A DNA stretch of 64,000 bases from Promethearchaeota archaeon (GTDB lineage Archaea; Asgardarchaeota; Lokiarchaeia; Sigyniarchaeales; SOKP01): assembly GCA_019057865.1 (NCBI GenBank), contig JAHLWP010000014.1, positions 23,462-87,461 on the forward strand, read 5' to 3'. Both the position numbers and the translations under genes were made by a program. A model generated the notes under the pieces. That model was not told where the DNA came from and made no database searches. It worked only from the letters and a program-made list of their open reading frames with translations. Numbering within the stretch: position 1 is the first letter of the stretch; every line of letters starts with the position of its first letter. This document shows positions 28,814-64,000 of the stretch, piece after piece.

Positions 28814-28936
28814 TTACTTAAATTTTTATGTTTAATATATGATTTTTAAAATATAACTATATTATTATATTTAATTAAAAGAAGATTTTAAGATAGCAGT
28901 TTCATTTTTAATCCTTTTTAAAAATAGTTGATTTTT

Positions 28937-39300: not shown

Positions 39301-40197
39301 ATTTATATGGAAAAACAAGGGTATAAATTAAAATTAGCTGAAAGAAGAATAACAGAGAAAGCTAAAAAAACCCTATTTGAAAAAGATTTAGGTCTGTATA
39401 TTGACTTTATTGATGAGATTATCAACTTTCTAAATGCTGTGAAAACTGTTGATAAAGTAGGAGGATTATACCGCCAAAAACTTAAAAGTGAACTTTCAAA
39501 GTTCATAGCTTCAAAAGCTTCTAAAAAAGTAAAAAATAAAAAGCAGATAAGCGAATTACGAGATGATTTGTTCCATATTCTTGTTAAACACGGATATTTA
39601 ATTGAAACTCATCCTAACAAAGCAGGTGGTTCAGAATCCATTAGGACTTGTTATGAAGTGGGATCAAAATACAATGAAGCTTTGAATGATTACTTTCAAA
39701 CAGAAGGAGATTATTTACCCAATGTTTCTGTGGATATTATTGAGGGAAATTCTGATTCAGATTCAAATATTCTTGATTATTTTCGGAAAGAAACCAAGAA
39801 GGAAATTATAAATCAAGAAAAGTTCGATGAGATATTACTTGAACAATGTAGTAAAATGTTATGGAAATTATATCAAATGTATTCTGCTAATAACAAAAAC
39901 GAATTTGAAAAATCTCTTAAAATTGGAGAAAATTTCATTAAAGACTTCTTAATAAATCTCCATCAATCTTATCTCCAAGAAAATAATATCTCTATACCTG
40001 AGATTAATGATCCAGAAATATTTTTTGACCATTTAGCTAAAAATAACCTAATTCCTTTAACTAAAGATGAACTTAGAGATTATTTTAAAAAATCCAAGGA
40101 AATTATATCAAATACCACAAATATTGAAAAAACTGCTAAAGATCTTCATGATTTATTATTTGAGTTTTATAATAAATTTCAATCCTATATAAGCTAA
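36310..40197 (+). CDS. Membrane HerA/VirB4-like protein with apparently inactivated Walker motifs; C-terminal helical/wHTH-like region
   Basis: Two N-terminal TM pairs; NREHTKMKIVSELVKANKSCIVFDYSGKWSKLM aligns to HerA P-loop region; VIFIPNIDMFFD at Walker B; ECGFGLICSANQIRYLHPHVFSFLHNIITFRANDTRDIAVLKNQMN. Confidence 0.6.
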   Translation: MINKNNKRKKDEKMSNFIPKQYQNDAKIIGEQENSHDYLDIWDVNPSYKDINSRFSILKGISLTIILFFLAILTYQLTTNIYISIGLTIFTLLFFIFCFSDNFFNLRNLYYYLFHKFISINPFENLSFCTIRQEPTFLLILNKKDAISTAMRIFKIETLPENVYPTLNQFLKALNKGQISYTYQVVQSPYLDFSEPSSENKFQVESIRSQNLSSIDSLHTSIYFCVYYNINGILSSNKIDKLIEIVNDLSNELKSNFSANFHHTKISLLGGIDLINAIRTFFCKSSIQPADKEADLFIAKRNLPKVLFKTGFVSFLIISLSYLLLSLIFPLGFIILINFLLELLIICIWWREILFYFSKSRLSRNLELTQINPFTDVEFYRLNKYNDLIFTYIDNQLLLASKIFNLKFAAQPTLTYFDKFIRGIDKYKIIFNYNLQVTPISANLFSKECLKLLNDKTKESLEGILYITLDKTSSKKVKHPEVEFEKWLDMRSGVWKTMLTVSTSSYLFTKDLTFKNFIELEKELSTNAKILKRTFEDNFLNFKLVGLKNQLLISGFLSECLKNHSFRLNGTHLNYVYFQGKSLIELAKIVNEFKKGIDTRIAAEFNTPLQLKNFITIGNTINTEFLDEEVPFGLTFDQLQQLLITNGLSYNREHTKMKIVSELVKANKSCIVFDYSGKWSKLMNFFKDSQYNGNILYFKLGSSFSIDLKHSGMKYDKNNIDYLNLFFDTFALAFKAEKRYVDLLKDSFLRQDEFDVSSISLDLEMKNKWERDYKTNNLIAIFRDFRNQSQIFSNLTLDHEDEINPIDFLRNDKSIIVDLSILKDLEQKTFVTFIIISKLIHYIQNSTDYYKKVIFIPNIDMFFDSFFIDNNYNTTNYGKVSKFLEPFLECGFGLICSANQIRYLHPHVFSFLHNIITFRANDTRDIAVLKNQMNLQELQGTGYYSSKRNNTYQINYLMNMRENEVIIKRSDIYQPFPGVVDLNELKGIEPLQYEKILIYMEKQGYKLKLAERRITEKAKKTLFEKDLGLYIDFIDEIINFLNAVKTVDKVGGLYRQKLKSELSKFIASKASKKVKNKKQISELRDDLFHILVKHGYLIETHPNKAGGSESIRTCYEVGSKYNEALNDYFQTEGDYLPNVSVDIIEGNSDSDSNILDYFRKETKKEIINQEKFDEILLEQCSKMLWKLYQMYSANNKNEFEKSLKIGENFIKDFLINLHQSYLQENNISIPEINDPEIFFDHLAKNNLIPLTKDELRDYFKKSKEIISNTTNIEKTAKDLHDLLFEFYNKFQSYIS

Positions 40198-45535: not shown

Positions 45536-46545
45536 ATTTCAATCTTCTATTTGAAGCTAATTTCTTTGCGACAAAGGAGTTGGTAAAAATTTCAACAATT
45601 TATAAAATCAAATTTCAATCTTCTATTTGAAGCTAATTTCTTTGTGACCAAAATCTTGCACGTTTAACTATATTGCCTTGAATGAATTTCAATCTTCTAT
45701 TTGAAGCTAATTTCTTTGCAACATAAAATGCTTATTAAAGCTTGTGAAAATTGTTATTATATTTCAATCTTCTATTTGAAGCTAAATTCTTTGCGACATG
45801 ATTATGGACATCTATAAAATGTATAATGCTAATGCGTTTCAATCTTCTATTTGAAGTTAATTTCTTTGCGACATATAATATCATCTGATTCTGAAAAGGG
45901 GGTTAGAAAAGATTTCAATCTTCTATTTGAAGCTAATTTCTTTGCGACTATGATGATACTTTATTAGTTAGTTTAAGAATTGCTTTGTTTCAATCTTCTA
46001 TTTCAAGCTAATTTCTTTGCGACCCTAGTATTGAATGATTTAAACCATAATCTAAATCTTAATTTCAATCTTCTATTTGAAGCTAATTTCTTTGCGACCT
46101 TAAAAGATTAATTTACTTCCACGATACCACAGAATTTCAATCTTCTATCTGAAGCTAATCTCTTTGCGACGAATATCATACTCCGATTAACAAGTTGATA
46201 CAAGTATTTCAATCTTCTATTTGAAGCTAATTTCTTTGCGACTTTTACCTTTACAAATGGAACAGGAGATACAATAGGATTTCAATCTTCTATTTGAAGC
46301 TAATTTCTTTGCGACCTGTAAGTCTATTAGTAATTGGAATCGTATTACCTCTCGGTCTATTTCAATCTTCTATTTGAAGCTAATTTCTTTGCCACTTGGA
46401 ACTGCGGAAGAGATAGCATATGCTTACGAGAAATTTCAATCTTCTATTTGAAGCTAATTTCTTTGCGACAGGCGGAATTTTATATAAAGGCGATGTAGCA
46501 GAGCCTTAATTTCAATCTTCTATTTGAAGCTAATTTCTTTGCGAC
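45536..46545 (-). CRISPR. CRISPR block A, 14 repeats (37 nt, + strand RTTTCAATCTTCTATTTGAAGCTAATTTCTTTGCGAC), several degenerate; transcription predicted on minus strand
   Basis: Regular repeats with 35-41 nt spacers; degenerate repeats (TTTGTGAC, TTTCAAGC, CTATCTGAAGCTAATCTC). Confidence 0.98.
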
Positions 46546-46652
46546 TCTTATTATATATAATATAATAAGCTAATTACTAATATTTATTTTTTTATCGCGA
46601 ATATAAAAGTACCATATGTAAAGAAGTATATGTCTAAATATACATTGAATAG
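46546..46652. other. 107-nt non-repeat interval inside the array, probable decayed leader
   Basis: tcttattatatataatataataag resembles tctagttactatataatataaaaag (48875) and ttatattactatataatataatatg (63828). Confidence 0.6.
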
Positions 46653-48874
46653 GTTTCAATCTTCTATTTGAAGCTAATTTCTTTGCGACTGAACTTATCG
46701 AAAACACCTAAAGATTTAGCGAAACAATTTCAATCTTCTATTTGAAGCTAATTTCTTTGCGACATAACGTAACAAACATATTCAAACGTATTGCAAGATA
46801 TTGATTTCAATCTTTTATTTGAAGCTAATTTCTTTGTGACCAAAATCTTGCACGTTTAACTATATTGCCTTGAATGAATTTCAATCTTCTATTTGAAGCT
46901 AATTTCTTTGCGACATGGAAAAATCATGATACACAAACTTTCAAATTAGTATTTCATTCTTCTATTTGAAGCTAATTTCTTTGCGACACCAGAGTTTTAT
47001 GAGAGATTTCATCAAATTTCGAAATTTCAATCTTCTATTTGAAGCTAATTTCTTTTCGACTGCTCCTGGACCTGCATGTGATAATTGCCATGAATTAATA
47101 TTTCAATCTTCTATTTGAAGCTAATTTCTTTGCGACTGTTTTACCACTTGGATTAGGATATTTGGCTATAGCATTTCAATCTTCTATTTGAAGCTAATTT
47201 CTTTGCGACTACAATGCATTCTTATCGTGGATTATTCATGTGTATTTGCATTTCAATCTTTTATTTGAAGCTAATTTCTTTGCGACAAATGAATCGGTTG
47301 ATTATATATTTTGTGGTCATCTAATATTTCAATCTTCTATTTGAAGCTATTTTCTATGTATCTTGGAGACTTACTTGCTCAGAATGAATTTATCATTAAG
47401 TTTCAATCTTCTATTTGAAGCTAATTTCTTTGCGACATTAATATTTATAAGAACTCATTATGATGCATCCCATAAATTTCAATCTTCTATTTGAAGCTAA
47501 TTTCTTTGTGACGAATAATAATCTTTCATCCATGGCGGGGGAAACCTATTTTAAAATTTCAATCTTCTATTTGAAGCTAATTTCTTTGCGATTTAGCTTT
47601 AAAACGCAATCCTTACTGGTATAATAATGTGTTTCAATCTTCTATTTGAAGCTAATTTCTTTGCGATTATTAAAAAAGCATTTGGGATAAAGAAGCCTAC
47701 GGGCGGTTTCAATCTTCTATTTGAAGCTAATTTCTTTGCGATAATGTTATCAGGAAAATATGGCCTCTTAGATTCAAAGTTTCAATCTTCTATTTGAAGC
47801 TAATTTCTTTGCGATCACATGAAAAAAATAAGAGAAGCTTTAGTTCAAGATAGTTTCAATCTTCTATTTGAAGCTAATTTGGTTGCGACATTAGGAACTA
47901 AAGGAAATGCTTATGTAGTCTTTAAGAAATTTCAATCTTCTATTTGAAGCTAATTTCTTTGCGGCTGTCTTAAATCTGGTAAAACAGAGGAGGAATGTAA
48001 GATATTTCAATCTTCTATTTGAAGCTAATTTCTTTGCGACCTCATTCAAAAGTATTTATAGAAAAACCTAAATATTGTTTCAATCTTCTATTTGAAGCTA
48101 ATTTCTTTGCGACACCAGAAGCATATATATATTCACCAAGAGAAATGATATTTCAATCTTCTATTTGAAGCTAATTTCTTTGCGACGTTAATTTCTGCAA
48201 ATCAACATAGGGGAGACTTCAGTTTATTTCAATCTTCTATTTGAAGCTAATTTCTTTGCGACGACTGATGGATTCGGTACATTTCCCAGAGTTATTAAGT
48301 CATTTCAATCTTCTATTTGAAGCTAATTTCTTTGCGACTATCATAGGTTTTAATGGAGATATACGCAAACAAGATGGGTTTCAATCTTCTATTTGAAGCT
48401 ATTTTCTATGTATCATTATTCATGGGACAACGATTATATGGTTGGCTGGAATCGAGAGTTTCAATCTTCTATTTGAAGCTAATTTCTTTGCGACACAAAA
48501 TGTCACATAAAAAATATTCTATGTCTATAACATTTCAATCTTCTATTTGAAGCTAATTTCTTTGCGACAAAGATCCAATGATTTCTACTGATATTTTAAA
48601 TGTTCAGTTGTTTCAATCTTCTATTTGAAGCTAATTTCTTTGCCACTAATGACTGTCGGAGTAAGAGATATTGTTATGGTCGCTGTATTTCAATCTTCTA
48701 TTTGAAGCTAATTTCTTTGCCACAAGATTATCTGTATTTATTTTACACGATTTTGATTTAAGATTTCAATCTTCTATTTGAAGCTAATTTCTTTGCGACG
48801 AGTTTGAACCTCATACCGAAATGAATGAAGCATACGAATTTCAATCTTCTATTTGAAGCTAATTTCTTTGCGAC
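46653..48874 (-). CRISPR. CRISPR block B, 30 repeats of the same 37-nt repeat; transcription predicted on minus strand
   Basis: Regular repeat/spacer architecture; leader on right side. Confidence 0.99.
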
Positions 48875-49001
48875 TCTAGTTACTATATAATATAAAAAGA
48901 AAGTATATTTAATTTTTGTTAACTTAATAAAAATTTCATATTAAAACAAAAAATTTTCTTTATTTTTGTTGTAATCTTCTCTCTTTTTGATTTATTTCTT
49001 C
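48875..49001 (-). promoter_or_regulatory. CRISPR leader for block B
   Basis: Conserved with sequence after block C (63828-64000). Confidence 0.85.
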
Positions 49002-49661: not shown

Positions 49662-50336
49662 TTATAATTTTAAAATAAAGCTTAAAATTTTGTTGTTAAT
49701 ATCGTTAAAGAGATTCTCTAATGATGTTTTTGAGTTTAAAAGCAAGTCCAATAAATTTTTCAAATGGATTCTTAATTTTTTTACGAGTTGATCTAATACT
49801 TCACTGTATAAGTTTTCAATTTTTTCTTTAGATACGGGTTCAAATCCATGAGCGATAAGGGAGCTATTTCTTAAATCACCTAAACATTTTATACTCGTTT
49901 TATCCCCATATATTTTCTCTCTTTCCGCTTCCTTTAAATCATCATAACAATATTTATTAATTTTATCTAAAATATCTAAAATATTTCTAATTTGAAATAC
50001 ATCTTTGTTTTGCTTCTTTAGATCGTCTAATTTTAGCTTAGCGATGTAAAATAATATCGTACGATTTAAAATGGTAGGATTGATATTTAAAGGATCTTTT
50101 TTAAAAGTTATATTCTGTAAAGAATTCCATAAGGTAAGTTCGTTATCTTCTAAATATTTTATTAAAGCGGGATGATTTTTTTTATTGGTTAAACTTCCCT
50201 TAATATTATCTTTAAAAAAATAATTATTAATCTCAAAAAGGATGGCTTCTTCTAATCTAAACAAGAGCGCCACTAATACCAAATAATTTTGATTTTTATG
50301 ACAGATTTCGATTTTCCAAAAGATTTCTTTTATCAA
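49662..50336 (-). CDS. Stand-alone HEPN-like protein similar in style to C-terminal effector region of CRISPR CARF-HEPN (TIGR02710/Csm6-type) proteins
   Basis: IKCLGDLRNSSLIAHGFEPVSKEKIENLY: R-X6-H motif in helical protein, no CARF domain. Confidence 0.6.
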   Translation of the reverse strand: MIKEIFWKIEICHKNQNYLVLVALLFRLEEAILFEINNYFFKDNIKGSLTNKKNHPALIKYLEDNELTLWNSLQNITFKKDPLNINPTILNRTILFYIAKLKLDDLKKQNKDVFQIRNILDILDKINKYCYDDLKEAEREKIYGDKTSIKCLGDLRNSSLIAHGFEPVSKEKIENLYSEVLDQLVKKLRIHLKNLLDLLLNSKTSLENLFNDINNKILSFILKL

Positions 50337-50395
50337 ATTTAAAGGATTAGATAATTGATTTAAGTTTAGAGGTTGATATTTTATATAATCTGAAC

Positions 50396-50764
50396 TTGGA
50401 ATTGAATTTAAGAAACTTCTTAAATATTTATGAGCAATTTCAAAATCAAAATTTTTCCTATGATGGGCATATTTTAAAAGAGAAATTAATGAATCTTTCT
50501 ATTTTTGAATTTATAATAAGTTCGGATAATCTTGCTAAATATTTAGAGCTTATTTTAAATCATGTAATTTTTTATAATAAAAAAGTGATTACTGAAAAAA
50601 TATTAAATTCAGATTCTTTAATCATCGATTATAAATTTAATAAAATCTTATTTAATTATATTCCAAAAGAATCAACAGAATTTGAATTTTTAAGTCTCTT
50701 ATTAAAAAAAGGATTATTAAATTTGAGTAGAAAGGATAAAAATTCAAGAAAATATTATGAGTAA
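50396..50764 (+). CDS. Small hypothetical protein upstream of CARF gene
   Basis: 122-aa ORF, ~50 nt before CARF ORF, divergent from HEPN-like gene. Confidence 0.5.
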   Translation: MELNLRNFLNIYEQFQNQNFSYDGHILKEKLMNLSIFEFIISSDNLAKYLELILNHVIFYNKKVITEKILNSDSLIIDYKFNKILFNYIPKESTEFEFLSLLLKKGLLNLSRKDKNSRKYYE

Positions 50765-50813
50765 TATTGTAAAATGATTTTTTTTATCAATAATTATAGG
50801 TGGTGTTTAAGAA

Positions 50814-51638
50814 ATGAAAGATAGTATAAAGAAAGAAAAACCACAATTTCATATTATAACTTGCGGTACATCTATATTAAGCAATTATAATTATAACCGT
50901 TCTGAAGAATCTAAAATCAATCTAGACTTTATCAAATCCTTAGACGATTCTAAACACGATTGGTTAGAAATAATAAATAAATTTTTTGAATTTCTAAAAC
51001 AAAATCCTGAGCGAAATTCTGCCGAAATTAATAGTTTAAGCTATTTTTTAAAAGAAGGTAAAGTAAAGAAGATCTACCTTATATGTACTGATACTAACGC
51101 AGGAAAATTATGTGCAAATACTTTACAAAAATATTTTCGCAATGAATTGAAAATATCTGATATAAATTTTAAAGAAGCAAGAGGATTTGGAACAGAAGAT
51201 TTTGAAAAAGGTCTATTAGAAATTAGAGATACCATATTAAGATTAATAAGAAAGCATGAAAATTCACATGAAATTTATTTAAATGCAACGGGAGGGTTTA
51301 AGCCAGAATCTGCTATGATGGTGTTGTTAGGCTCACTATATCAACTTCCTGTGTATTATCTCTATGAAACATCGCGAAAACTAGTAATGATTCCTCCTTT
51401 TCCGCTATTATATATAGAAGAGATATATATTGAGATTTTACAAAAATTAATAGATAAACCAGGTGGAATTCGTATAAATCGCGAAGTAAAGAAATTTGAA
51501 GAGGTGTATGGTGGAAAATTAAAATATTTAGAAAAAGTTGGAGCGATTGGAATAAGAAAGCGGGAAAATAGTTCGAAATCTTATTTCATAAGATCAAGCG
51601 GAAGATTTTTATACGATTTTAAAACTAAAACAAAATAA
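50814..51638 (+). CDS. CARF-domain CRISPR-associated protein, APE2256 family, with C-terminal wHTH-like region (Crn1 ring nuclease-like)
   Basis: FHIITCGTSILSNYNYN; KKIYLICTDTNAGKLCANTLQKYF; YLNATGGFKPESAMMVLLGSLYQLPVYYLYE. Confidence 0.85.
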   Translation: MKDSIKKEKPQFHIITCGTSILSNYNYNRSEESKINLDFIKSLDDSKHDWLEIINKFFEFLKQNPERNSAEINSLSYFLKEGKVKKIYLICTDTNAGKLCANTLQKYFRNELKISDINFKEARGFGTEDFEKGLLEIRDTILRLIRKHENSHEIYLNATGGFKPESAMMVLLGSLYQLPVYYLYETSRKLVMIPPFPLLYIEEIYIEILQKLIDKPGGIRINREVKKFEEVYGGKLKYLEKVGAIGIRKRENSSKSYFIRSSGRFLYDFKTKTK

Positions 51639-51687
51639 TTTTTGGTTAATTTTTCAAATGAATGATAAATTAAAAATTAACCGCTTT

Positions 51688-52844
51688 TTATTTTAGCTCA
51701 AGAGTACACCCCCGATTCATTAAACGAGCTAATTCTGGAGAAATTAAATCCTTTATTATAAAATCACCGCGTATATTCCTCTCTAATTGTATTTGATATA
51801 GGAGTTCGTGCTCGTTTCTGATAATTACAAACGCACGTATCTTTTTTTCGACTGATGATTCCGTCTTGGGCCCGCAGAACTTCAATAACGATTGAATCAC
51901 GCTATTTGAACCCTCTGCAACATTATTTTGGATCGTCTTGCGAAAAAATAGTCCAAAAAGCTCTTTTAATGTAACAACAATCTTAGGATCCATGTTTTTG
52001 CTGAATTTTATGGTCATTCTATAAGGATCGACTTTCATGTACCCTCGCTGGCCCTTATAGAACACTTTAAAGAGCCTTTGCATCCCACGTCTCTTATTCT
52101 TCACGGATTTCTTCTTTTTCTTTGATTTATTTTTTGAACCAAGGGGTCTTCCACGTTTTTTCGACGGTGGAGGGTTAGACGGCATCTTAGAGACGGTATA
52201 ATAGAATTCTCGCTTCCCTTTTTTCTTAAACACATCATTTTTTATCCCAATTTCAGAGGTTATTCGGTCGGTTTTTGTATAAGAATAATGCCTCGTCAGC
52301 ACCTTTTTGTAAGGTTTTTTATGTTTATGAATGACGTGCGTAATTTCTCGACCTAAATTTTTAGTCATTGTTTGGGTGGCACCCCAGCCATCCGAAATCA
52401 CGTCAGAGATTGGCTTTTCTGTATTTTGTTCGGCTTCATCAAAGACTTCTCGCAGGTCTTTTTCCTTTCTGGTCTTGGAAACCTTTAAACCTAAAATTTT
52501 ATGGGTTTTATATCCCGTAGCAACAATGATATAGATGGGAGTGCCCTCTATTTTTAAAAAATGTCTCGTCCATGCAGATTGCCCTGTTGGATTGCGGCAC
52601 CTTCACGAGCTTATCGAGCCCCTCTAACTTGTCAAGAGATTCTACAAAGACAGCACGCAATGCTGAAATTTGGGAGGGCGAGACCTTGTATTTTTTTGCA
52701 ATTGTCTTACTTTTTGCACCATCTTTAAGTAAGTCTTCATAAAGCCTCTCAAGTTTATTAAAGACTTGTTTTTTAAACTCGTAAGAGGTAGTCAGGATGA
52801 ACTGCTTGGGAGTTTTCTTGGTCGCCTGGATTTGTTTCTTCTAT
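51688..52844 (-). pseudogene. DDE-type transposase, frameshifted/degenerate
   Basis: ICMDETFFK / (frameshift) IEGTPIYIIVATGYKTHKILGLKVSKTRKEKDLREVF...VISDGWGA...NNVAEGSNSVIQSL: D-D-E; KKRGRPLGSKNK AT-hook-like insert; N-terminal part lies in another frame without a start codon. Confidence 0.7.
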
Positions 52845-52845
52845 T

Positions 52846-53811
52846 CTAGTCATTGATAAATTTCATTAAGTTAACTTGATATTTTACTTTCTTATTCCTA
52901 CATAGGCTTTTAAAATTACAATATTCACAAGATTCTGACGTATAAGCCATTTTAAATTGATTTATATCAAATTCATGGTATTTCTTATTATTTATTAGCT
53001 TACCCATATCTTTTGAAGAAATATTGATATAATCTTTAATATTACAGACATCTGAAGAAGTGAGTTTATAGTTTCTTTGAAAGTTTTTTAAGAGTTGATA
53101 TTCAATTAATCTTATTTCTGTTGGATCATCAATAGGTTTCTGGAAAGGATCAGTTGATATACTTTCTGTTAGAGCAATAGCGTAAATTCCCAGTTGCATC
53201 CGTGCATTCTCTTTTCTAAAAAAATAGACTTTCCAATCAATGATCATAGGTGGTTCATCCCTGAAATAAACGATTAAATCTGGGCGGCTAATGATATTAA
53301 ACTCTTGGAATTTATAATTGAGATTCTTTTGAGCAACTAAGACTATGTTGGAGTCTAAAAGGATTTTCATAAGCTCTGATTGGAGTAAATTTTTTAATGA
53401 TATTATTACTTGTTCCTTTATTTTTTCAACAGAGTCATTATCTAATCCCTCTGAGTTCTCTATTTCGCGTAGAGCGCAATAACTGTCACCGGCCTTCTTC
53501 TTAGTTAGCTTGGGGTCTCTATATTTCCTTAGTTTTGCGAATTCTAATTGCTTTTTCATTAACTCAGAAACAAAAGTCTCAATTTTATCAAAGGGAGGAA
53601 CATTGCTTTTATTAAATTCAGGAACCAAAAGATTTTCGATAACTTGGTCGACAATTTTCCCTCTCCAAGTATGAATGCTTCCTAATTGTTTTAAGATATA
53701 GGCTTCAAATCTATCTTTATCTTTACTATTTTTTCTTGCCATAATTTCGTAATAAAACCATTTTCTTTGGCATTTCGAAAAAATTTTAGCTTTAGATATA
53801 GACCAGTTCAT
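52846..53811 (-). CDS. Cas4/RecB-like PD-(D/E)XK exonuclease with C-terminal cysteine cluster
   Basis: SISKAKIFSKCQRKWFYYE; SRPDLIVYFRDEPPMIIDWKVYFF; CEYCNFKSLC. Confidence 0.78.
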   Translation of the reverse strand: MNWSISKAKIFSKCQRKWFYYEIMARKNSKDKDRFEAYILKQLGSIHTWRGKIVDQVIENLLVPEFNKSNVPPFDKIETFVSELMKKQLEFAKLRKYRDPKLTKKKAGDSYCALREIENSEGLDNDSVEKIKEQVIISLKNLLQSELMKILLDSNIVLVAQKNLNYKFQEFNIISRPDLIVYFRDEPPMIIDWKVYFFRKENARMQLGIYAIALTESISTDPFQKPIDDPTEIRLIEYQLLKNFQRNYKLTSSDVCNIKDYINISSKDMGKLINNKKYHEFDINQFKMAYTSESCEYCNFKSLCRNKKVKYQVNLMKFIND

Positions 53812-53910: not shown

Positions 53911-54897
53911 TTAATCTTTTAATTGCTCACGGCAGTTTATGGCGAATTGTTCGCATTCCTCCTCCTTCCATTTCGGGTGAAGATAGGTTTGCGTTAGAGA
54001 GGGGATTGGGATATATCTCTGTTTAATGATATGAGCACCCCAATTCTTAATGAGTGCCCTCCTTTTTTCTACCTCCTCAAAAGAATCCTCGAAGTTATAA
54101 AGTACAAACACGCCAATTTTCTTGCGCTGATATCCTGCTTCTTCGAAATACCTTATTGCTCTCTCGCAAGCCTCCTCTTCGTCTGCCCTGTCAAATGAAA
54201 TACGTATATCTCGAAAATTAGCTTCAAACATTAATTTAGCTATCTCCTGCGTGACTAAAGCCGCGTCCACCCCAGATAAACAGTAAGAAGCCTTCACCTT
54301 AGCCTCAATTAGTTCTGTAAGGATATTTTCGATGTACGGATTGCTGAGGAGGTTATTATCCAAGAATGAAACATTGGGTTTTACTATCTCGCTCTTAATA
54401 CTCCACTTCGGTTCGAATTTGGGTTCTAACTTATGAACATGGCAAAAAGAACACTTTCGTATGCACCCCCTGCTCGCGTGGATCACACAAAACTTACAAT
54501 CTTGTATTAAATCATAAGCAGGGATGAGTGATTCCGCTTCTTCCATCAACCCAACGTGAACTTCGTCACAACCATTCTTCTTGCAATGCTCCGGCATTAT
54601 AGAAGCATACACACCACCAACCACGACTTTCGAATCTGGGTAAAGCGTCTTGTATGTTCTCACGGAGTCCCAAACAGGCTGCCACCAATAGGTAAAGAGA
54701 GATATAATTAGCATCAGATCAGGTTTCTTCAAAGTTAGACCATCCCCCCTTACAAGTTCCACGGTGGCTCCCATTTTGCGGTACAGAGATCCCAACTTGA
54801 GAAGTCCTATAGGCAAGTATCTCTCTTTCATATAATTTTCCCAGTTCTTGGCTCGAACCTTGTAATTCCAGTTAGGCTCGACTAGAGAGACGTGCAA
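53911..54897 (-). CDS. Radical SAM protein with N-terminal B12-binding-like domain
   Basis: ASRGCIRKCSFCHVHKLEP (CxxxCxxC); LPIGLLKLGSLYRKMGATVELV...PDLMLIISLFTYW. Confidence 0.85.
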   Translation of the reverse strand: MHVSLVEPNWNYKVRAKNWENYMKERYLPIGLLKLGSLYRKMGATVELVRGDGLTLKKPDLMLIISLFTYWWQPVWDSVRTYKTLYPDSKVVVGGVYASIMPEHCKKNGCDEVHVGLMEEAESLIPAYDLIQDCKFCVIHASRGCIRKCSFCHVHKLEPKFEPKWSIKSEIVKPNVSFLDNNLLSNPYIENILTELIEAKVKASYCLSGVDAALVTQEIAKLMFEANFRDIRISFDRADEEEACERAIRYFEEAGYQRKKIGVFVLYNFEDSFEEVEKRRALIKNWGAHIIKQRYIPIPSLTQTYLHPKWKEEECEQFAINCREQLKD

Positions 54898-54928: not shown

Positions 54929-55672
54929 TTATTTATCCAATTTATCTTTAATATCAGTATAATTATGTTTAACAGGACATATCACTAATCCAAGTTCAGA
55001 GATTTTAATAATTTTCTCTCTACCTTTACGTTCTTCAGTTAAATAGCCTTTTTTAACTAAATTTTTCACAATGCGGGACAAATTCGGAAGATCCCATGAT
55101 TTATTATTATCTTCACATATTTTTAACAATTTATTCAAATTAGTTGAATCAATTTGATGAGGATTATTTCGGTTAATCTCTTTATACATGATGTTTATTA
55201 ATTCCTGTCCTTTATTGCGTGGTTCTACTAAGTTAAAGAGACTATTTTTTGTAAAATCTTGTTTATTAAAGTAAAATACTTCTTTTATTTGTAGTTTTTG
55301 GATTTGTGCTGCAATATAAAGAGCTAATTTCATTTCGAAGGTACCTGAAGTAAGATTACATATAATTTCATATTTCTTGTCTTTGACATATTTTATTAAA
55401 GCACGTAGGGTGCGTATTAATTCAATAAGATCATTCTCAACATGTATTTCTATAAGTGTATATTTGATTCTTTCATTTTCTGGAAAAATTTCTTGAGATT
55501 TATTTAATAGTTCAATTTTTTCATTAATATCCTCGTAAAAATTTTTAGATTTCTGTTCACTAACCGGTGGACTAATAAATACATACCAATTAGTTTTGGG
55601 ATTTTTACGATGTGCTACATATATCCATTTATGTAATTTTCCATAGAGCATAATTTGACATTCTTTCATCAT
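54929..55672 (-). CDS. CARF-wHTH protein (Csa3-like)
   Basis: IICNLTSGTFEMKLALYIAAQIQ; C-terminal SWDLPNLSRIVKNLVKKGYLTEERKGREKIIKISELGLVI. Confidence 0.78.
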   Translation of the reverse strand: MMKECQIMLYGKLHKWIYVAHRKNPKTNWYVFISPPVSEQKSKNFYEDINEKIELLNKSQEIFPENERIKYTLIEIHVENDLIELIRTLRALIKYVKDKKYEIICNLTSGTFEMKLALYIAAQIQKLQIKEVFYFNKQDFTKNSLFNLVEPRNKGQELINIMYKEINRNNPHQIDSTNLNKLLKICEDNNKSWDLPNLSRIVKNLVKKGYLTEERKGREKIIKISELGLVICPVKHNYTDIKDKLDK

Positions 55673-55986: not shown

Positions 55987-56196
55987 ATGGTTAATGTGTG
56001 TGAAAATAATGATAAAATCGAAGTGCATCATATTATCCCCTTCTTTAAAAATAGAAAAGATCATTCAGACATTTTAATTGGTTTATACTATAGTGCTATT
56101 CATGAAGAAGTACTAAATTTACATTTTGATGAAAAATTTATAAGTAATAATTATAAAGATAAGAATAGACTAAAATCGAAATTATGGGATGTATAA
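55987..56196 (+). CDS. Short ORF with HHIIP motif (HNH-like fragment?)
   Basis: IEVHHIIPFFKNRKDHSDILIGLYYSAIHEEV. Confidence 0.4.
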   Translation: MVNVCENNDKIEVHHIIPFFKNRKDHSDILIGLYYSAIHEEVLNLHFDEKFISNNYKDKNRLKSKLWDV

Positions 56197-56200
56197 CAAA

Positions 56201-56656
56201 ATGAAAATTGTTATAAATTCAATTGATTACAGTGGCTCTATTGTAGATGGGCCAGGGATTAGAACAGTTTTATTTGTACAAGGTTGCAAGCGAAGATGTG
56301 AAGATTGTCATAATCCTAGCACATGGGATATGGATGAAGGGATAAAATTTGACGTTGAGGATATTGTGGAAGATTTAAGAAAAAAATGTTTAAATAAGAA
56401 ACTCACCATATCTGGAGGCGAACCTCTTTTACAATACCCGGCGATTCTTGAACTGGTTAAAAGTTTAGATGGTTTTAATATCGTACTTTATACTGGTTTT
56501 GAATTTGATGATGTACCTAAAGAAATTTTATATTATCTCGATTATATCAAAGTTGGTAAATATATTAAAGAACTAAGAAGTACTATTATCCCTTTTATGG
56601 GTTCAAATAACCAAAAATTTATTGAATTAAGAGGTGGAAAAATTGAAATCAATTAA
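56201..56656 (+). CDS. nrdG: Anaerobic ribonucleotide reductase activating protein (radical SAM)
   Basis: YSGSIVDGPGIRTVLFVQGCKRRCEDCHNPSTWDMDEG; LTISGGEPLLQ. Confidence 0.92.
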   Translation: MKIVINSIDYSGSIVDGPGIRTVLFVQGCKRRCEDCHNPSTWDMDEGIKFDVEDIVEDLRKKCLNKKLTISGGEPLLQYPAILELVKSLDGFNIVLYTGFEFDDVPKEILYYLDYIKVGKYIKELRSTIIPFMGSNNQKFIELRGGKIEIN

Positions 56657-58337
56657 TTTTGAACACGCAGCTCAGCGTAAAACTTTTGTTGGGCTTGTAT
56701 ATAGTAGAGGAAGTAAAGAAATAAAAGAAACAATTCTCAACGGTTTGGAAGAAAGATTCTCAAAATTGCATAGAGAAGGCAGAATTCACATACATGATTT
56801 GGAAGCGTATGGTGAAACCTACAATTGTTTGACACCAAACATTCTAAAAGGATTCCCTTATGAAGAATATACTAATTATTCGGATTTTAAGAAAATGATA
56901 GAACTATTTAATTATTACAGACATATCATTGTTGGTTTGGGGAATGAACAATCTGGTGGAATAGCTTTTGCGAATTTTGATGAAGAAGTCGAGATTATTT
57001 ATAATAAATTAAATATCGCTAAGAATGAAATTAATTTTCAATTTCTAAGAGATTGTATTGATTCGTTCTTAAAGTGGATACATGAGGCAAGAGATCGATG
57101 TGGACAAGTACAATATTATGTTACTTTAAATCTTGGATTAGCTACGGGAGAAATCAGTAGATTTGTCACCTCGTCAGTTTTAAAATATTTTATGGCTTCG
57201 AAATATATCAGACCCAATATTATTTTTAAATTGAAAGACGGTATTAACCGTAAGAAAGGTGATAATAATTATGATTTATTTCGTATAGCAATGGAATGCA
57301 CATGTAAAAAAATGATTCCAACCTATTTTTTATGTGATTCTAACCACAATCTTAAGGTAGATCCATTTAAAATTGCACTAATGGGTTGTAGATCAAAAGT
57401 ATATCAAAACGAGTATGGTGAAGATACTACAATAGGGAGAGCTAATATTGTTTATAATACAATCAACCTTCCTAGAATTGCACTCGAAATTGATAAAAAT
57501 AACCCGAATTTAACTAAGGAAGAAAAAATCGACTTATTCAAAAAAAATTGGCTGGAAATTGCTGATGATGTTAAGGATCTTCTTTTTGATCGTTATTATA
57601 AGATTTGTAAACAAGACCCAGATGATTTTCCCCGTAATTTGCAACATAATTTAAGGATTATAGATTTAAAGAATGTAAATTCAATGGAAGAAGTGTTTAA
57701 AAATGGAACATTAGCTATTGGATTTATAGGTGTATCAGAAACAATAGAGTTGTTAACCGGGGAAGAATATTTTGCATCTGAAGAAAATCATCAGAGGGCA
57801 ATCGATCTCATAAAAATGATGAGAGATACCATTGATAAGTATAGAAAAGAATATAATATGAATTTCTCATTACTCGGAACATCGGGTGAATTTATTTCTG
57901 GTCGTTTTCCTGGCGTAGATAAGAAGTATTTCTCAAATTCTCTAATAGATAAAGGCTATTATACTAATTCATTTCATGTAGATGTTGATTCTCGACTAAA
58001 TCCTTTTGAGAAATTGAAATTTGAGGGCCCATTTCATAAATTTTGTAATGGAGGGTGTATATCATATATAGAGTTTCAATCTGCACCATTAAATAATGTT
58101 GAAGCAATTTCGGAACTAATTGAAAGCGCGATTAAATATGATGTTAATTATCTTGGATTTAATTTTCCAATGGATCGTTGCTTAGATTGTGATACAACAG
58201 GAACATTTGATGTCTGTGGAAAGTGTGGAAGCAGTAATATACTAAGAATAAGAAGGGTGTCTGGATACTTAGAAGATCTAGCATTTTTCACCCCAGGAAA
58301 AAAAGCAGAGGTTGCATATAGAAAACCAAATGTTTAA
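56634..58337 (+). CDS. nrdD: Anaerobic ribonucleoside-triphosphate reductase
   Basis: HIHDLEAYGETYNCLTPN; GFIGVSETIELLTG; C-terminal CLDCDTTGTFDVCGKCGS zinc site. Confidence 0.93.
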   Translation: MEKLKSINFEHAAQRKTFVGLVYSRGSKEIKETILNGLEERFSKLHREGRIHIHDLEAYGETYNCLTPNILKGFPYEEYTNYSDFKKMIELFNYYRHIIVGLGNEQSGGIAFANFDEEVEIIYNKLNIAKNEINFQFLRDCIDSFLKWIHEARDRCGQVQYYVTLNLGLATGEISRFVTSSVLKYFMASKYIRPNIIFKLKDGINRKKGDNNYDLFRIAMECTCKKMIPTYFLCDSNHNLKVDPFKIALMGCRSKVYQNEYGEDTTIGRANIVYNTINLPRIALEIDKNNPNLTKEEKIDLFKKNWLEIADDVKDLLFDRYYKICKQDPDDFPRNLQHNLRIIDLKNVNSMEEVFKNGTLAIGFIGVSETIELLTGEEYFASEENHQRAIDLIKMMRDTIDKYRKEYNMNFSLLGTSGEFISGRFPGVDKKYFSNSLIDKGYYTNSFHVDVDSRLNPFEKLKFEGPFHKFCNGGCISYIEFQSAPLNNVEAISELIESAIKYDVNYLGFNFPMDRCLDCDTTGTFDVCGKCGSSNILRIRRVSGYLEDLAFFTPGKKAEVAYRKPNV

Positions 58338-58364: not shown

Positions 58365-58946
58365 ATGCACATAGCAATTGAAGGAGTAGATGGTGTAGGA
58401 AAAACAACGGTCTGTAAGATAATTGCGGAAAAATTAAATTTCAAATTTATTGAAAAACCATTACATTATCTTTTAGATTCCGATACCGAATTTGAAAATT
58501 ATTTTAGAATTCGTGATTATGTTAATTGTCAAGGTCATAACAAGATTTTTACTTCTTGGTTTTATGGATTAGGGAATATTTTTCTTTATCATAAATTTAA
58601 AGATGAAAATATTATTACTGACAGACACCTAGTGTCCAATTTTTATTGGAGCGGTGATGAAAGTAGCCAGGCAGTTTTTGATTGCTTGATTGATTTAATT
58701 GGTAAGCCCGACTACACGTTTTTATTATATGCAAAAGAAGGAGTGGTAACAAAAAGATTAAAAAACAGAGATAGCAATGATATGGATATTATAAAATCTT
58801 CATTAATAACTGAAGCGTATATTAAGATGGAGAAATTTTTAATAGATTACGATATGAAATATAAACTTATTGATACCACAGAACTCAATGCCAATGAAGT
58901 TGCAGATCTTATTTTGAGTTATTTATCTGAGGTTGGAATAGAATAA
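58365..58946 (+). CDS. Thymidylate kinase-like deoxynucleoside/nucleotide kinase
   Basis: IAIEGVDGVGKTTVCKIIAEKL; NIITDRHLVSNFYW. Confidence 0.85.
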   Translation: MHIAIEGVDGVGKTTVCKIIAEKLNFKFIEKPLHYLLDSDTEFENYFRIRDYVNCQGHNKIFTSWFYGLGNIFLYHKFKDENIITDRHLVSNFYWSGDESSQAVFDCLIDLIGKPDYTFLLYAKEGVVTKRLKNRDSNDMDIIKSSLITEAYIKMEKFLIDYDMKYKLIDTTELNANEVADLILSYLSEVGIE

Positions 58947-60721
58947 TGACAAAAGTCGATATGAAATACACCAGTTTGTTTTGGAAACTGGGATTTGTTG
59001 AAGAAACTACTGATTTATATATTAAAGAATACACTGATTCTTATCGCATAGATATAGAAGCAGAAAAGCAAATAGTAAATTATGGATTTAATAATAAAAA
59101 GACTGATGATATTCCAACCACTTTGTATGAACATAAAGATTTCGTTGTATTAGAATGTGTAAACAGGTTAATTGAAAAAGGATATAAACGTGAGGATCTA
59201 CATTTAACGGGTAATGCGGATAAACTTGAAAAACCTGACATTATAGGATATGATAAATTAAACAAATCATTGTTTGCCTTTGATTGCAAACGATGGGGCA
59301 AAGATTTTGAGGAAGAATTGGCAATTATAAAAAAAGGAAAAGGTCTATTGTTCTCATACTTCAAAAACAATAAGGAAATAAAATATTTGTGTTTATATAC
59401 TTCAAGATTGGATGGTGGTCTATTAGAATATAAAAATGCAATAATATCAACCGCAAACATAAATCATGATAATTATATATATTTCTCGGGTATATTTGAA
59501 GAAAATGTAAAGCCCTACAATGCTGTTCTTTCTCTGTCAGAACAAGAGAGGCAGAACATGTTTGATAAGATAAAGACAGAAGTTTTAAAAAATTTAGATG
59601 GTAAAGAATACATAATAGAAGATGGTGTGTTGATAAAATACCAAGGAAATAGCGAACACATTAGAATTCCAAATTCTATTAAAAATATTGGGACAGGAGC
59701 ATTTTGGAATTGTACAAGCTTAGTATCCGTAGAAATACCAAATGGAATAAAAAGTATCGGTGGAGACGCATTTTATTATTGCCATAACTTAAAATCTTTA
59801 AACATTCCGAACAGTGTTCAAACTATTGGCAATGATCCGTTTGCTGACTGTCCGTTGCTTACATTAACAAACAAGAGCCCCGATTTTATTTTAGATGATG
59901 GTGTGTTATACGATAAAACAAAAACCACTATTATACACTATCCCATTAATAATATTTCAAAAACTTTTATTATCCCAAATGGAGTTATATGTATCGGAAA
60001 ACACGCATTTTATAATTGCACCAATCTTGAAAGCATTACCGTCCCTAGCAGTGTTATATGTATAGAAAACAATGTGTTTGCAGATTGTAAAAATCTTACT
60101 TTAACTAACAACAGCCCACATTTTGTTTTGGAAAACGGAGTGTTATATAATAAAGAAAAAACTCAATTAATATCTTTAATCGATCACCAATTGGAAACTC
60201 TCGATATTCCAAGCAGTGTTCTGACAATAGGAAAAAATGTTTTTTGGAATTGCTTGAATTTAAAGAGTGTTACTATTCCTAGAAGTGTTACCCGGATAGG
60301 TTACAACCCGTTTGCCGGCTGCAATTCTTTAGTGTTAAAGAATCATAGCCCTCATTTTGCTTTAGAAAACGGAGTGTTGTACAATAAAGAAAAAACAGAG
60401 ATAATCTATTGTCCAAATACCAGCATTTCAGGAACTATTGCCATACCGAGTAGCGTTACAAGCATAGGAAGGAATTCCTTTAGCTATTGCGTGAATCTTG
60501 AAACCTTAATTGTTCCAGCTGATGTAACCATTATTGAGAGGGGTGCATTTAGTGGTTGCATAAATTTATCATCTATCACAATCCCGGATAGCGTAAAATT
60601 CATTGGTAAATGGGCATTTGGTCATTGTAAAAACTTAAAAACTATTAAAATCTCAAAAAATACTGTAATAGAAGATTACGCTTTTGCTGAATGCCAAGTA
60701 AAAATAACTCTTATATCTTAA
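58946..60721 (+). CDS. PD-(D/E)XK restriction-like nuclease domain fused to BspA-type leucine-rich repeats (LRR_5)
   Basis: KPDIIGYDKLNKSLFAFDCKRWG (PD..DxK) followed by IGTGAFWNCTSLVSVEIPNGIKSIGGDAFYYCHNLKSLNIPNSV repeats. Confidence 0.82.
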   Translation: MTKVDMKYTSLFWKLGFVEETTDLYIKEYTDSYRIDIEAEKQIVNYGFNNKKTDDIPTTLYEHKDFVVLECVNRLIEKGYKREDLHLTGNADKLEKPDIIGYDKLNKSLFAFDCKRWGKDFEEELAIIKKGKGLLFSYFKNNKEIKYLCLYTSRLDGGLLEYKNAIISTANINHDNYIYFSGIFEENVKPYNAVLSLSEQERQNMFDKIKTEVLKNLDGKEYIIEDGVLIKYQGNSEHIRIPNSIKNIGTGAFWNCTSLVSVEIPNGIKSIGGDAFYYCHNLKSLNIPNSVQTIGNDPFADCPLLTLTNKSPDFILDDGVLYDKTKTTIIHYPINNISKTFIIPNGVICIGKHAFYNCTNLESITVPSSVICIENNVFADCKNLTLTNNSPHFVLENGVLYNKEKTQLISLIDHQLETLDIPSSVLTIGKNVFWNCLNLKSVTIPRSVTRIGYNPFAGCNSLVLKNHSPHFALENGVLYNKEKTEIIYCPNTSISGTIAIPSSVTSIGRNSFSYCVNLETLIVPADVTIIERGAFSGCINLSSITIPDSVKFIGKWAFGHCKNLKTIKISKNTVIEDYAFAECQVKITLIS

Positions 60722-60785
60722 GTTCGGATATACGAAATTAATATTATAAATAATAAATTTTTATGAATCAAGGTTAGGAGATTAT

Positions 60786-61898
60786 ATGAACTCTAATATT
60801 TCAAAGAAGAAGAAGGAAAATTTATTGAAAAAAATTTCAATTCTTAAAGATTTCATAAGTAAAAACACCAATGACCCTACGTTAATAGAATACCTGCTGG
60901 AGATCAAGAAAGAAATTAATGAAAAAAGATATGGGCTTCTATTTGAAGAACATATAGAAGAGATTATCAGCGCGAATAACATAATATTATCTGAAGTAAA
61001 AGAATTATCTATAGACGTAGGGGGGAATGAAAATATACTAATAGAGGGTGAAAATTTAGCAGCATTAAAGGTTTTAGAACTAGAATATCGAGGTAAAATT
61101 GACGTAATCTGCATTGATCCACCATACAATACTGGAAATAAAACTTTGAAATATAATGACTACGATTACATTGATTCCGATGATGAATATAGCCACAGTA
61201 AATGGCTCAGTTTTATGGAGAAGAGGTTAAACATTGCAAAAGAATTGTTAGTTTCAAATGGGGTAATTTTTGTTAATATTGATGAGACTCAAATAGGTTG
61301 CTTGATTTTATTGTGCGAAGAAATTTTTGGGGAGCAAAATGTAGATGTATTAATCTGGCCTAAAACAGACCCAAAATATGACAAGAATAGAGTGGAAAAA
61401 CCGATTTTTAACGTGAAAATGGCACATGAATATGTAGTAATGTGTTATAAGAACAAGACTAATACACATTTTAATAAGATGATAAGACGTCCAAATAATA
61501 GCGATTTTAAAACACCAGAACAACCATTTTATATGGAATCCATACTAAATGAGATTGGGACAACTTCATTTGCAAAAGATGAATTGCACGAAATTTTTGG
61601 CAGTAGGGATATAAATGTCACTCCAAAACCACGAAAAATGATCAAAGAATTTGTGAGAGTAGCTGCGGGACCAAATGCGATTATTTTAGATTTTTTTGCA
61701 GGCTCAGGTACGACCGGTCATGCAGTAATGGATTTGAATAAAGAAGATGGAGGAAAAAGAAAATTTATTTTGGTAACTAATAATGAGAATAACATTTGTA
61801 TAGATATTACTTATGAGCGACTTAAGAGAGTAATTTATAAAGATAATTATACAGAGAATCTAAAATACTTTAAGATTGAATCAATACAAAGACTTTAA
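60786..61898 (+). CDS. Site-specific adenine DNA methyltransferase (type III Mod-like, compact)
   Basis: DVICIDPPYNTGNKTLKYNDYDYIDSDDEYSHSKWLSFMEKRL; DFFAGSGTTGHAVMDLN. Confidence 0.92.
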   Translation: MNSNISKKKKENLLKKISILKDFISKNTNDPTLIEYLLEIKKEINEKRYGLLFEEHIEEIISANNIILSEVKELSIDVGGNENILIEGENLAALKVLELEYRGKIDVICIDPPYNTGNKTLKYNDYDYIDSDDEYSHSKWLSFMEKRLNIAKELLVSNGVIFVNIDETQIGCLILLCEEIFGEQNVDVLIWPKTDPKYDKNRVEKPIFNVKMAHEYVVMCYKNKTNTHFNKMIRRPNNSDFKTPEQPFYMESILNEIGTTSFAKDELHEIFGSRDINVTPKPRKMIKEFVRVAAGPNAIILDFFAGSGTTGHAVMDLNKEDGGKRKFILVTNNENNICIDITYERLKRVIYKDNYTENLKYFKIESIQRL

Positions 61899-61918: not shown

Positions 61919-62671
61919 ATGCCTGGTATTTTTGCAATCTCAGATCCCCACCTTCCCACTCAAACCCAAATAAGCAAATATGGAGCACCATCAGATTATT
62001 TTCAGCAAGTTTCAAATCATTTAGAACAAATTAATCCAGATGTTTTATTGATTGCGGGAGATTTAGTTTGGGGATCTGATATTTCCGAAATTCAAGCAGA
62101 ATTAGATCTTCTCCGAGAACTTCCGGGAAAATTAAAGTTTTTTATTGAAGGAAATCATGATATATGGGTAGATAGACTGAGTACATCCTACTCTGAAGCA
62201 CAACAAAAGATGTATGAACGTTTTTCAACTTCCAAGTTCTTTTATATAGGAGGAAGGGCTTCTATTGTTTCAATAAATTCGATCAAGGTAGGGATTTGCG
62301 GGGCGCGTGGGTTTGCATTTGATCCATATGAGAAGCCTATAGAAGATGAATTACTTTTTCGTAAAAATGAATTAGAATCATTAGATAAATCTTTATTTGA
62401 GCTTAAAAACATAATTAAAACCGAACATACAACAATTAATTTGTGTTTAATGCATTATCCTCCAACTGTTTCAGTCTTTAAAAACCATCGAATTGGAGAT
62501 GAAGAGTTTATAAAACACATTTACGATACAGAAATAATCAACAAGGTAATATTTGGTCATGTGCATATAGATGAAATTTTACGGTTATATACAAAAAAAG
62601 AAAAAATTGAACTATATTGTGCGACAATCGATCGAAATAATTATAATGCAATTAAAGTTTTTGATATTTAA
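61919..62671 (+). CDS. Calcineurin-like metallophosphoesterase
   Basis: IFAISDPHL; LLIAGDLVWG; FIEGNHDIW; VIFGHVHID. Confidence 0.92.
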   Translation: MPGIFAISDPHLPTQTQISKYGAPSDYFQQVSNHLEQINPDVLLIAGDLVWGSDISEIQAELDLLRELPGKLKFFIEGNHDIWVDRLSTSYSEAQQKMYERFSTSKFFYIGGRASIVSINSIKVGICGARGFAFDPYEKPIEDELLFRKNELESLDKSLFELKNIIKTEHTTINLCLMHYPPTVSVFKNHRIGDEEFIKHIYDTEIINKVIFGHVHIDEILRLYTKKEKIELYCATIDRNNYNAIKVFDI

Positions 62672-62867: not shown

Positions 62868-63044
62868 TTATTCTTGATATTCTTCCATAACCCTTTTTGC
62901 TACTTGATCTTTTGGTTCTATGCGCAAAGCTTGTTCAGCATAGTTTTTTGCCAATTCATGCTCTCCTAAGAACTTATATGTTAAAGCTAGATGACTTAGT
63001 GTAGAATTACTTTTTGGATCTTTCTCTAATGCTTTAATATATGC
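62868..63044 (-). pseudogene. 5'-truncated TPR protein fragment abutting CRISPR block C
   Basis: Minus-strand frame ...AYIKALEKDPKSNSTLSHLALTYKFLGEHELAKNYAEQALRIEPKDQVAKRVMEEYQE*, no start codon; broken exactly at first CRISPR repeat. Confidence 0.75.
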
Positions 63045-63827
63045 ATTTCAATCTTCTATTTGAAGTTAATTTCTTTGCGACTTGTTTAGCAAGACAAATG
63101 AAGCAAATATTAAGTTTACATTTCAATCTTCTATTTGAAGCTAATTTCTTTGCGACGGGATAAATATGAGAAATGGCAAAAGAGGGCTGAGAAAATTTCA
63201 ATCTTCTATTTGAAGCTAATTTCTTTGCGACGGTGTCACAATTCACAAGGTTATGGGAAACGATCTTAAATTTCAATCTTCTATTTGAAGCTAATTTCTT
63301 TGCGATATATTAATGCTTCCAATGTTAATGCTACTGCTGTATTATTTCAATCTTCTATTTGAAGCTAATTTCTTTGCGACTATAAAGATAGATAAATATA
63401 TTTATCCTTTCATAGATACATTTCAATCTTCTATTTGAAGCTAATTTCTTTGCGACGTTGGCACAATTCTTGCACATGGGGTAAAAAGAAAACATTTCAA
63501 TCTTCTATTTGAAGCTAATTTCTTTGCGACAAAGAGAAATGGCAAAAGAAGAGGGCTGAGAAATGAAATTTCAATCTTCTATTTGAAGCTAATTTCTTTG
63601 CGACATTATTTCTCATGGGATTATCCATGTGATATGAATCTATTTCAATCTTCTATTTGAAGCTAATTTCTTTGCGACAATATGCAGTGTGAGTGTTGTG
63701 GATTAGAGGGTTTTCAATTTCAATCTTCTATTTGAAGCTAATTTCTTTGCGACCTCAGATCAATTGTACTATTGCTAAAGGATATCCTGTATTTCAATCT
63801 TCTATTTGAAGCTAATTTCTTTGCGAC
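63045..63827 (-). CRISPR. CRISPR block C, 11 repeats of the same 37-nt repeat; transcription predicted on minus strand
   Basis: Regular repeat/spacer architecture, leader on right. Confidence 0.99.
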
Positions 63828-64000
63828 TTATATTACTATATAATATAATATGAAAAGAAAATATATTTAATTTTTGTTAACTTAATAAAAATTTCATATT
63901 AAAACAAAAAATTTTCAATATTTTTTTCCAAAATTATTGTTTTATCAAAAAATTTTCTTTATTTTTGTTGTAATCTTCTCTCTTTTTGATTTATTTCTTC
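63828..64000 (-). promoter_or_regulatory. CRISPR leader for block C (continues to window edge)
   Basis: Near-identical to 48875-49001 apart from a 41-nt insertion/duplication. Confidence 0.85.

Follow-up and report, generated by a model that had tools for sequence, protein, structure and literature searches.

Closest described systems

Phage class III ribonucleotide reductase (RNR) operons (phrog_487, phrog_626) are the closest described relatives of the reductase genes analyzed here: NrdD and NrdG clearly belong to these families and have intact motifs. PHROGs places a matched NrdD family in its moron/auxiliary class. The adjacent nucleotide kinase belongs to the same thymidylate-kinase-like family as the viperin-associated kinase VakA, which is also the partner of a radical enzyme. 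The methyltransferase has its best sequence match among type III Mod proteins (Mbo45V, EcoP15I, 6k0w). Type IIG enzymes (PADLOC model PDLC03624; structural neighbor BsaXI, a weak match) have an N-terminal domain that is homologous to the nuclease-like domain of the fourth protein. The remainder of that protein has the LRR_5 solenoid in common with BspA-type surface proteins of gut bacteria (4gt6, 4h09).

No description of an operon with the order NrdG-NrdD-kinase-LRR_5-Mod was found in the open-access papers searched, and defence databases label its parts separately. The main text of a survey of Asgard defence systems (PMC11291487) mentions neither a ribonucleotide reductase nor a kinase nor a methyltransferase. 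We favor, with moderate confidence, the reading as a mobile cargo operon for dNTP supply and DNA methylation, in which the LRR protein would serve the kinase as a partner or regulator, without cleaving.

Gene content of the locus

The window is a stretch of 64,000 nt from an Asgard (Promethearchaeota) archaeon (contig JAHLWP010000014.1, 87 kb, of a 4.26-Mb MAG), and all coordinates refer to it. The operon is encoded on the plus strand.

The first gene (56189..56656) codes for NrdG, the radical SAM activase of the anaerobic RNR (NCBIfam TIGR02491, E=1e-31). The start that agrees with those of its relatives is the Met at 56207, and NrdG is kept in seven other loci. The second gene (56634..58337) codes for NrdD, the anaerobic class III RNR (Pfam NRDD, E=4e-102; solved homologs 8p23 and 1h78). 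The motifs YNCL, MGCR, CxxC...CxxC and RRVSGYL, which represent the active-site Cys, the Zn site and the glycyl-radical GY, are intact in all eight sequences. Many reductases carry an ATP-cone, which shuts them off at high dATP, although this domain is not strictly defining for class III. There is no Pfam match to an ATP-cone in NrdD, and its 567 aa cover the NRDD domain only. Because the radical, Zn and active-site motifs are present and an ATP-cone match is missing, NrdD is predicted to be free of the dATP brake.

The third gene (58365..58946) codes for the nucleotide kinase (Pfam Thymidylate_kin, E=1e-15; VakA model, E=1e-12). Its DRH/DRY and R..R(D/N) motifs occur in all eight sequences, and the P-loop pattern in seven (the annotated start of the phage sequence cuts it off). 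In the window, its stop codon overlaps the start of the next gene.

This fourth gene (58946..60721, ATG start) codes for a nuclease-like-LRR_5 fusion protein of 591 aa, as assigned by the ORF list, Pfam and type IIG homology. An earlier note on this DNA, made from the sequence alone, had reported a restriction-type nuclease core (PDIIGY...FAFDCKRWG) followed by LRR_5 repeats, and both were found. The N-terminal PD-(D/E)XK-derived domain (hereafter N-domain) is encoded at 58946..59560. The BspA-type LRR_5 solenoid (59609..60718; Pfam LRR_5, E=1.5e-71) fills the rest of the protein from about residue 222 on. Its AF2 model has a pLDDT of mostly 70-90, and the best Foldseek matches are the gut LRR proteins 4gt6 and 4h09.

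The fifth gene (60786..61898), separated by a gap of 64 nt in the window, codes for a compact type III-like N6-adenine DNA methyltransferase of 370 aa (Mod; type III MTase match, E=1e-76). The motifs DPPYNTGN and FAGSGTTG, already pointed out in the earlier note, are both present. The shorter middle region that it had described was also borne out: the distance from DPPY to GSGTT is 193 aa, compared with 250-337 aa in all but two measurable viral homologs. A Res helicase was correctly called missing, as none is encoded from Mod to the contig end or upstream to 54 kb, nor is there one among the annotated neighbors at the other Mod loci. Thus, the DPPY and GSGTT motifs of type III R-M systems are present, and an adjacent Res and a full-size target-recognition region are lacking. 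The genome of the window has another Mod-like gene (G000 C27:767-1636, L142), which is broken by three in-frame stops. A protein of about 690-710 aa that is common in the genus and the family (G007, G002, G018, G004 and many others) matches the type IIG model in its MTase part and is possibly a conserved orphan DNA methyltransferase.

Downstream of Mod, a calcineurin-like metallophosphoesterase is encoded (61919..62671, plus strand; Pfam Metallophos, E=1e-14), which is a facultative member. Other calcineurin-like phosphoesterases are found close to the module on the IMG/VR contig L017 and on contig L008 of genome G023. This recurrence of differing phosphoesterases, and the combination of a reductase, a dNMP kinase, a phosphohydrolase and a methyltransferase, would fit a base modification system. 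A modified dNTP would be produced by NrdD together with a dNMP kinase whose specificity has changed, phosphoesterases would clear the normal one, and Mod or the LRR protein would finish the marking. NrdD, however, appears ordinary, and there is no linked base-modifying enzyme or altered polymerase, so that we consider base modification very unlikely. The overlapping kinase, the upstream NrdG and NrdD, the downstream metallophosphoesterase and a CRISPR array at 63044-63846 had been absent from the earlier note.

Recurrence in Asgard archaea and in a gut phage

The module recurs in independent Asgard lineages. The gut phage NatCom_17901, from human faeces, has the identical five-gene order (NrdG-NrdD-kinase-[nuclease-like]LRR_5-Mod), and its module adjoins two serine recombinases. 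The IMG/VR contig L017 carries serine recombinases, NrdG, NrdD, a phosphoesterase and the kinase. NrdG and NrdD are located upstream of the kinase in the window, in the Asgard genomes G041, G065 (contig JAFGBX010000109.1, from a genome of the same order as the window genome), G133 and G150, in the phage and in L017, where the phosphoesterase lies between. G023 also has NrdG and NrdD, but on a contig different from that of the kinase-LRR pair. About 300 bp past NrdD of G023, two CRISPR-like direct repeats of 38 nt are found 75 nt apart (L133 2602-2714). On the other G023 contig (L008 2622-5333), a 903-aa protein, by eye a glycosyltransferase-Sel1-LRR_5 fusion, is encoded right after the kinase-LRR pair and is followed by the phosphoesterase.

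Downstream of the LRR gene, a compact Mod is encoded in the window, G041 and the phage, and also on one contig of G133, whose sequence starts inside the LRR_5 part. The G133 locus is split over two contigs (NrdG-NrdD-kinase-N-domain and LRR_5-Mod). The Mod orthologs from G041, G133 and the phage have 284-374 aa, and those of the phage and the window share 45% identity. By eye, the LRR and Mod sequences of G133 appear nearest to those of the phage. No compact Mod was found in the genomes G023, G065 and G150, of which G065 and G150 are incomplete. Recurrence of the LRR-Mod neighborhood, which the earlier note had made a test of its proposal, was thus confirmed. As long as only the window genome and G041 were known, Mod could have been a chance neighbor of the LRR gene, but the linkage in the phage and in G133 speaks against this.

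When 39 near relatives were searched with the NrdD of the window, matches were obtained solely in module-bearing genomes. On the basis of this distribution, the NrdD of near relatives is assigned to the module rather than being a housekeeping reductase. In small trees, the phage groups with L017 for NrdG, NrdD and the kinase, and G133 falls on the phage side for NrdD, the kinase and the N-domain. The gene trees agree with co-inheritance across domains. Taken together with the shared gene order, these groupings suggest that the module moves as one unit across the boundary between archaea and bacteria. An NrdD search for further viral copies retrieved only L147, which is the same IMG/VR record as L017. 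Most loci are on short MAG contigs, several of which stop inside the LRR gene, and contigs may have been mis-binned, especially that of G041.

The kinase and the LRR protein as a pair

The N-domain is present in four of 97 near relatives, and the upstream kinase in exactly those four. Throughout the Asgard phylum, the kinase profile matched six of about 226-228 genomes. The N-domain profile matched these six, and its sole extra match was a full-length type IIG enzyme of 1284 aa (G152). The N-domain gene directly follows the kinase at all seven loci with sequence past the kinase (window, G041, G065, G023, G133, G150 and phage), and the two genes overlap in four of them (window, G065, G023 and phage).

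Between 54.4 and 62.3 kb, the DNA of the window and of G041 is about 97% identical. Only across the kinase and the LRR gene does identity fall to 70-85%, with a gradual recovery inside the LRR end. Mod is 97% identical, whereas the LRR proteins differ by 26%. The dS values are 0.01-0.14 for the flanking genes, but 1.1 for the kinase, 1.3 for the N-domain and 0.5 for the LRR part, while dN/dS is 0.13-0.23 in these three. These values show that recombination has replaced the two genes as one cassette and that both are constrained. Diversifying selection as the cause of the divergence is rejected, as dS is raised as well. The G041 locus is a 9.7-kb contig that is possibly mis-binned, which does not affect its comparison with the window. 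Upstream, the near-identical stretch ends at a B12-binding/radical SAM gene (window 53911-54897) that is truncated in G041 (L006 1945-2460).

Because the pair was exchanged jointly within a near-identical block, the comparison says that the kinase and the LRR protein belong together more closely than do the LRR protein and Mod. The earlier note had paired the LRR protein with the methyltransferase. The obligate partner is instead the nucleotide kinase, and the operon is predicted to make dNTPs as well.

The nuclease-like domain

The descent of the N-domain from a PD-(D/E)XK nuclease, as proposed in the earlier note, is well supported. Over the first ~170 aa, the protein matches the N-terminal part of type IIG REase-MTase models (PDLC03624, E=8e-29), and this model is matched by six of the seven members of the N-domain family. 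The N-domain has 41% identity over 161 aa to the G152 enzyme, in which E-C-K is intact. No match was obtained when the N-domain was compared to plasmids, nor when the N-domain alignments A2 and A5 were compared to viral contigs. Sequence and profile had no significant match among PDB sequences. The AF2 model of the N-domain alone is poor (pLDDT 50), and its top Foldseek match, BsaXI, is weak (E=3.6e-3).

The active site was compared in seven family members (window, G041, G065, G023, G150, G133 and phage NatCom_17901). The window copy retains E70, D98, D113 and K115. Its site (LEC...PDI...FDCK) aligns with that of the G152 enzyme (LEC...ADI...IIECK). The triplets aligned to the K position are DCR in G041, DCV in G065, LVS in G023, SCY in G150, YCE in G133 and NCF in the phage, so that the catalytic K is replaced by R, V, S, Y, E and F, respectively. 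The acidic residues are often lost as well, and PD is gone in the N-domains of G023 and the phage. The complete D...(D/E)xK triad is thus confined to the window copy and is incomplete in six of seven members. Conservation is higher for the HKDFV/LEC/KGY helix and for a W two residues past the K position than for the catalytic residues. The N-domain dN/dS of 0.18 between the window and G041 indicates purifying selection. Most likely, the N-domain is a decayed type IIG relic that is retained as a binding module. To judge from the residues, a standard PD-(D/E)XK enzyme is possible only for the window copy, which keeps D98-D113-x-K115 and may still cut DNA. Variants of the PD-(D/E)XK fold without the K exist, so that residual activity is conceivable.

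The earlier note had proposed an R-M-like system, in which the LRR_5 part would provide specificity, the N-domain cleavage and Mod protection. Its nuclease descent holds, as does the repeated adjacency of Mod and the LRR gene, and the triad is intact in the window copy. The active site has, however, decayed in the relatives, among them the phage and the two further Asgard copies that are linked to Mod, and this decay also speaks against a working restriction or abortive nuclease. A helicase is missing, the LRR protein is linked to the kinase instead of Mod, and Mod is nearly invariant between the window and G041 despite the divergence of the LRR proteins. No finding points to modification-dependent cleavage or to sensing by the LRRs. 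We therefore hold an R-M-like function to be improbable. Rather than being a restriction system, the module probably represents a travelling package of genes that has not been described before.

CRISPR and CARF surroundings

Two CRISPR arrays flank the region (45540-48880 and 63044-63846, the latter with 11 repeats and near the contig end). They have the same ~37-nt repeat, spacers of 36-43 nt and the same strand. No effector cas genes were recognized in the scanned ORFs between or near the arrays, and the spacers have no convincing protospacer in the compared loci. Between the arrays and the operon, at 49662-53811, a Csm6-HEPN-like fragment (minus strand), a CARF APE2256-like protein (plus strand) and an 'Aga_Cas4-like_Nuc' PD-(D/E)XK protein (minus strand; PADLOC, E=3.5e-87) are encoded. 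A CARF-winged-helix protein (54929..55672, minus strand; PADLOC CARF, E=2e-11) is divergent from the NrdG operon. It could tie cyclic-oligoadenylate signalling to the operon, but is linked to it only in the window and G041 and is not part of the core. Further upstream, two large ORFs (28928-33454, 1508 aa; 36310-40197, 1295 aa) have no Pfam match, and the second also lacks a PADLOC match.

By analogy to viperin and VakA, the module might serve in defence. The LRR_5 protein would sense an invader and trigger a nucleotide response, in which the kinase and NrdD shift dNTP pools or make an antiviral nucleotide, and Mod would mark self DNA. The position between CRISPR arrays and near CARF genes is in accord with this, as are the patchy and mobile distribution, the kinase matches to the VakA and PDC-M51B models, the exchange of the kinase-LRR pair like a variable recognition unit, and the phage copy next to recombinases, a usual cargo site. 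However, an NrdD with a normal reductase active site would make dNTPs and thus help rather than starve a phage, phages themselves carry the module, dN/dS of the LRR part and the kinase is far below 1, and three Asgard loci, on short contigs, have no visible defence neighbors. Prokaryotic NLR/Avs-type receptors have a STAND NTPase, and a Pfam scan of the LRR protein revealed no NTPase domain. We regard a defence function as rather unlikely.

Proposed function and significance

In the favored reading as a mobile cargo operon, NrdG and NrdD would reduce NTPs to dNTPs anaerobically without the usual dATP brake, and the kinase would phosphorylate (d)NMPs. Mod would methylate adenine in the mobile element's own DNA and may thereby protect it. 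The LRR_5 protein, made together with the kinase and possibly in a complex with it, would regulate or scaffold the kinase without cutting. Phages would carry the operon beside serine recombinases, and archaea would have captured it. Several points speak against this reading: the triad is kept in the window copy, the CRISPR/CARF/Csm6-HEPN/Cas4-like setting suits a defence island, G023, G065 and G150 have no compact Mod, and NrdG-NrdD and the kinase-LRR pair are on separate contigs in G023.

It is tempting to speculate, at a similarly low probability as for defence, that the kinase-coupled LRR_5 protein, with its repurposed non-cutting nuclease domain, controls a mobile module that crosses domains and employs dNTP synthesis along with DNA methylation in the conflict between phage and host. 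This would be a new nucleotide-based defence or counter-defence common to Asgard archaea and gut phages. If the module does act in such a conflict, it would constitute an undescribed system, whose parts are reported by standard defence finders as two orphans, a type IIG fragment and a Mod. A five-gene order common to several Asgard lineages, which are related to the archaeal ancestor of eukaryotes, and to a human-faecal phage is strong evidence for cross-domain transfer of a module. The N-domain clearly illustrates how a restriction-nuclease domain can lose its active site and yet stay under selection, in strict association with a nucleotide kinase. The idea of a pseudo-nuclease/LRR regulator is directly testable.

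Comparison with known systems

The locus differs from phage class III RNR operons by the link to the kinase, the nuclease-like-LRR_5 protein and Mod, and NrdD has no ATP-cone. Compared to type III Mod proteins, the distance between DPPY and GSGTT is 185-193 aa rather than about 250-337 aa; also, Mod occurs without Res and in a different operon. Type IIG enzymes are a single R-M-S chain, whereas the protein described here has no MTase or specificity domain but LRR_5 repeats instead, and its site is degenerate in most members. VakA systems have viperin as the radical enzyme; here, viperin is absent, the radical enzyme is an RNR, and the kinase is coupled to the gene for the LRR protein. Unlike the BspA/LRR_5 surface proteins, the chain starts with a nuclease-like domain, has no obvious signal peptide and is encoded in an operon with a kinase.
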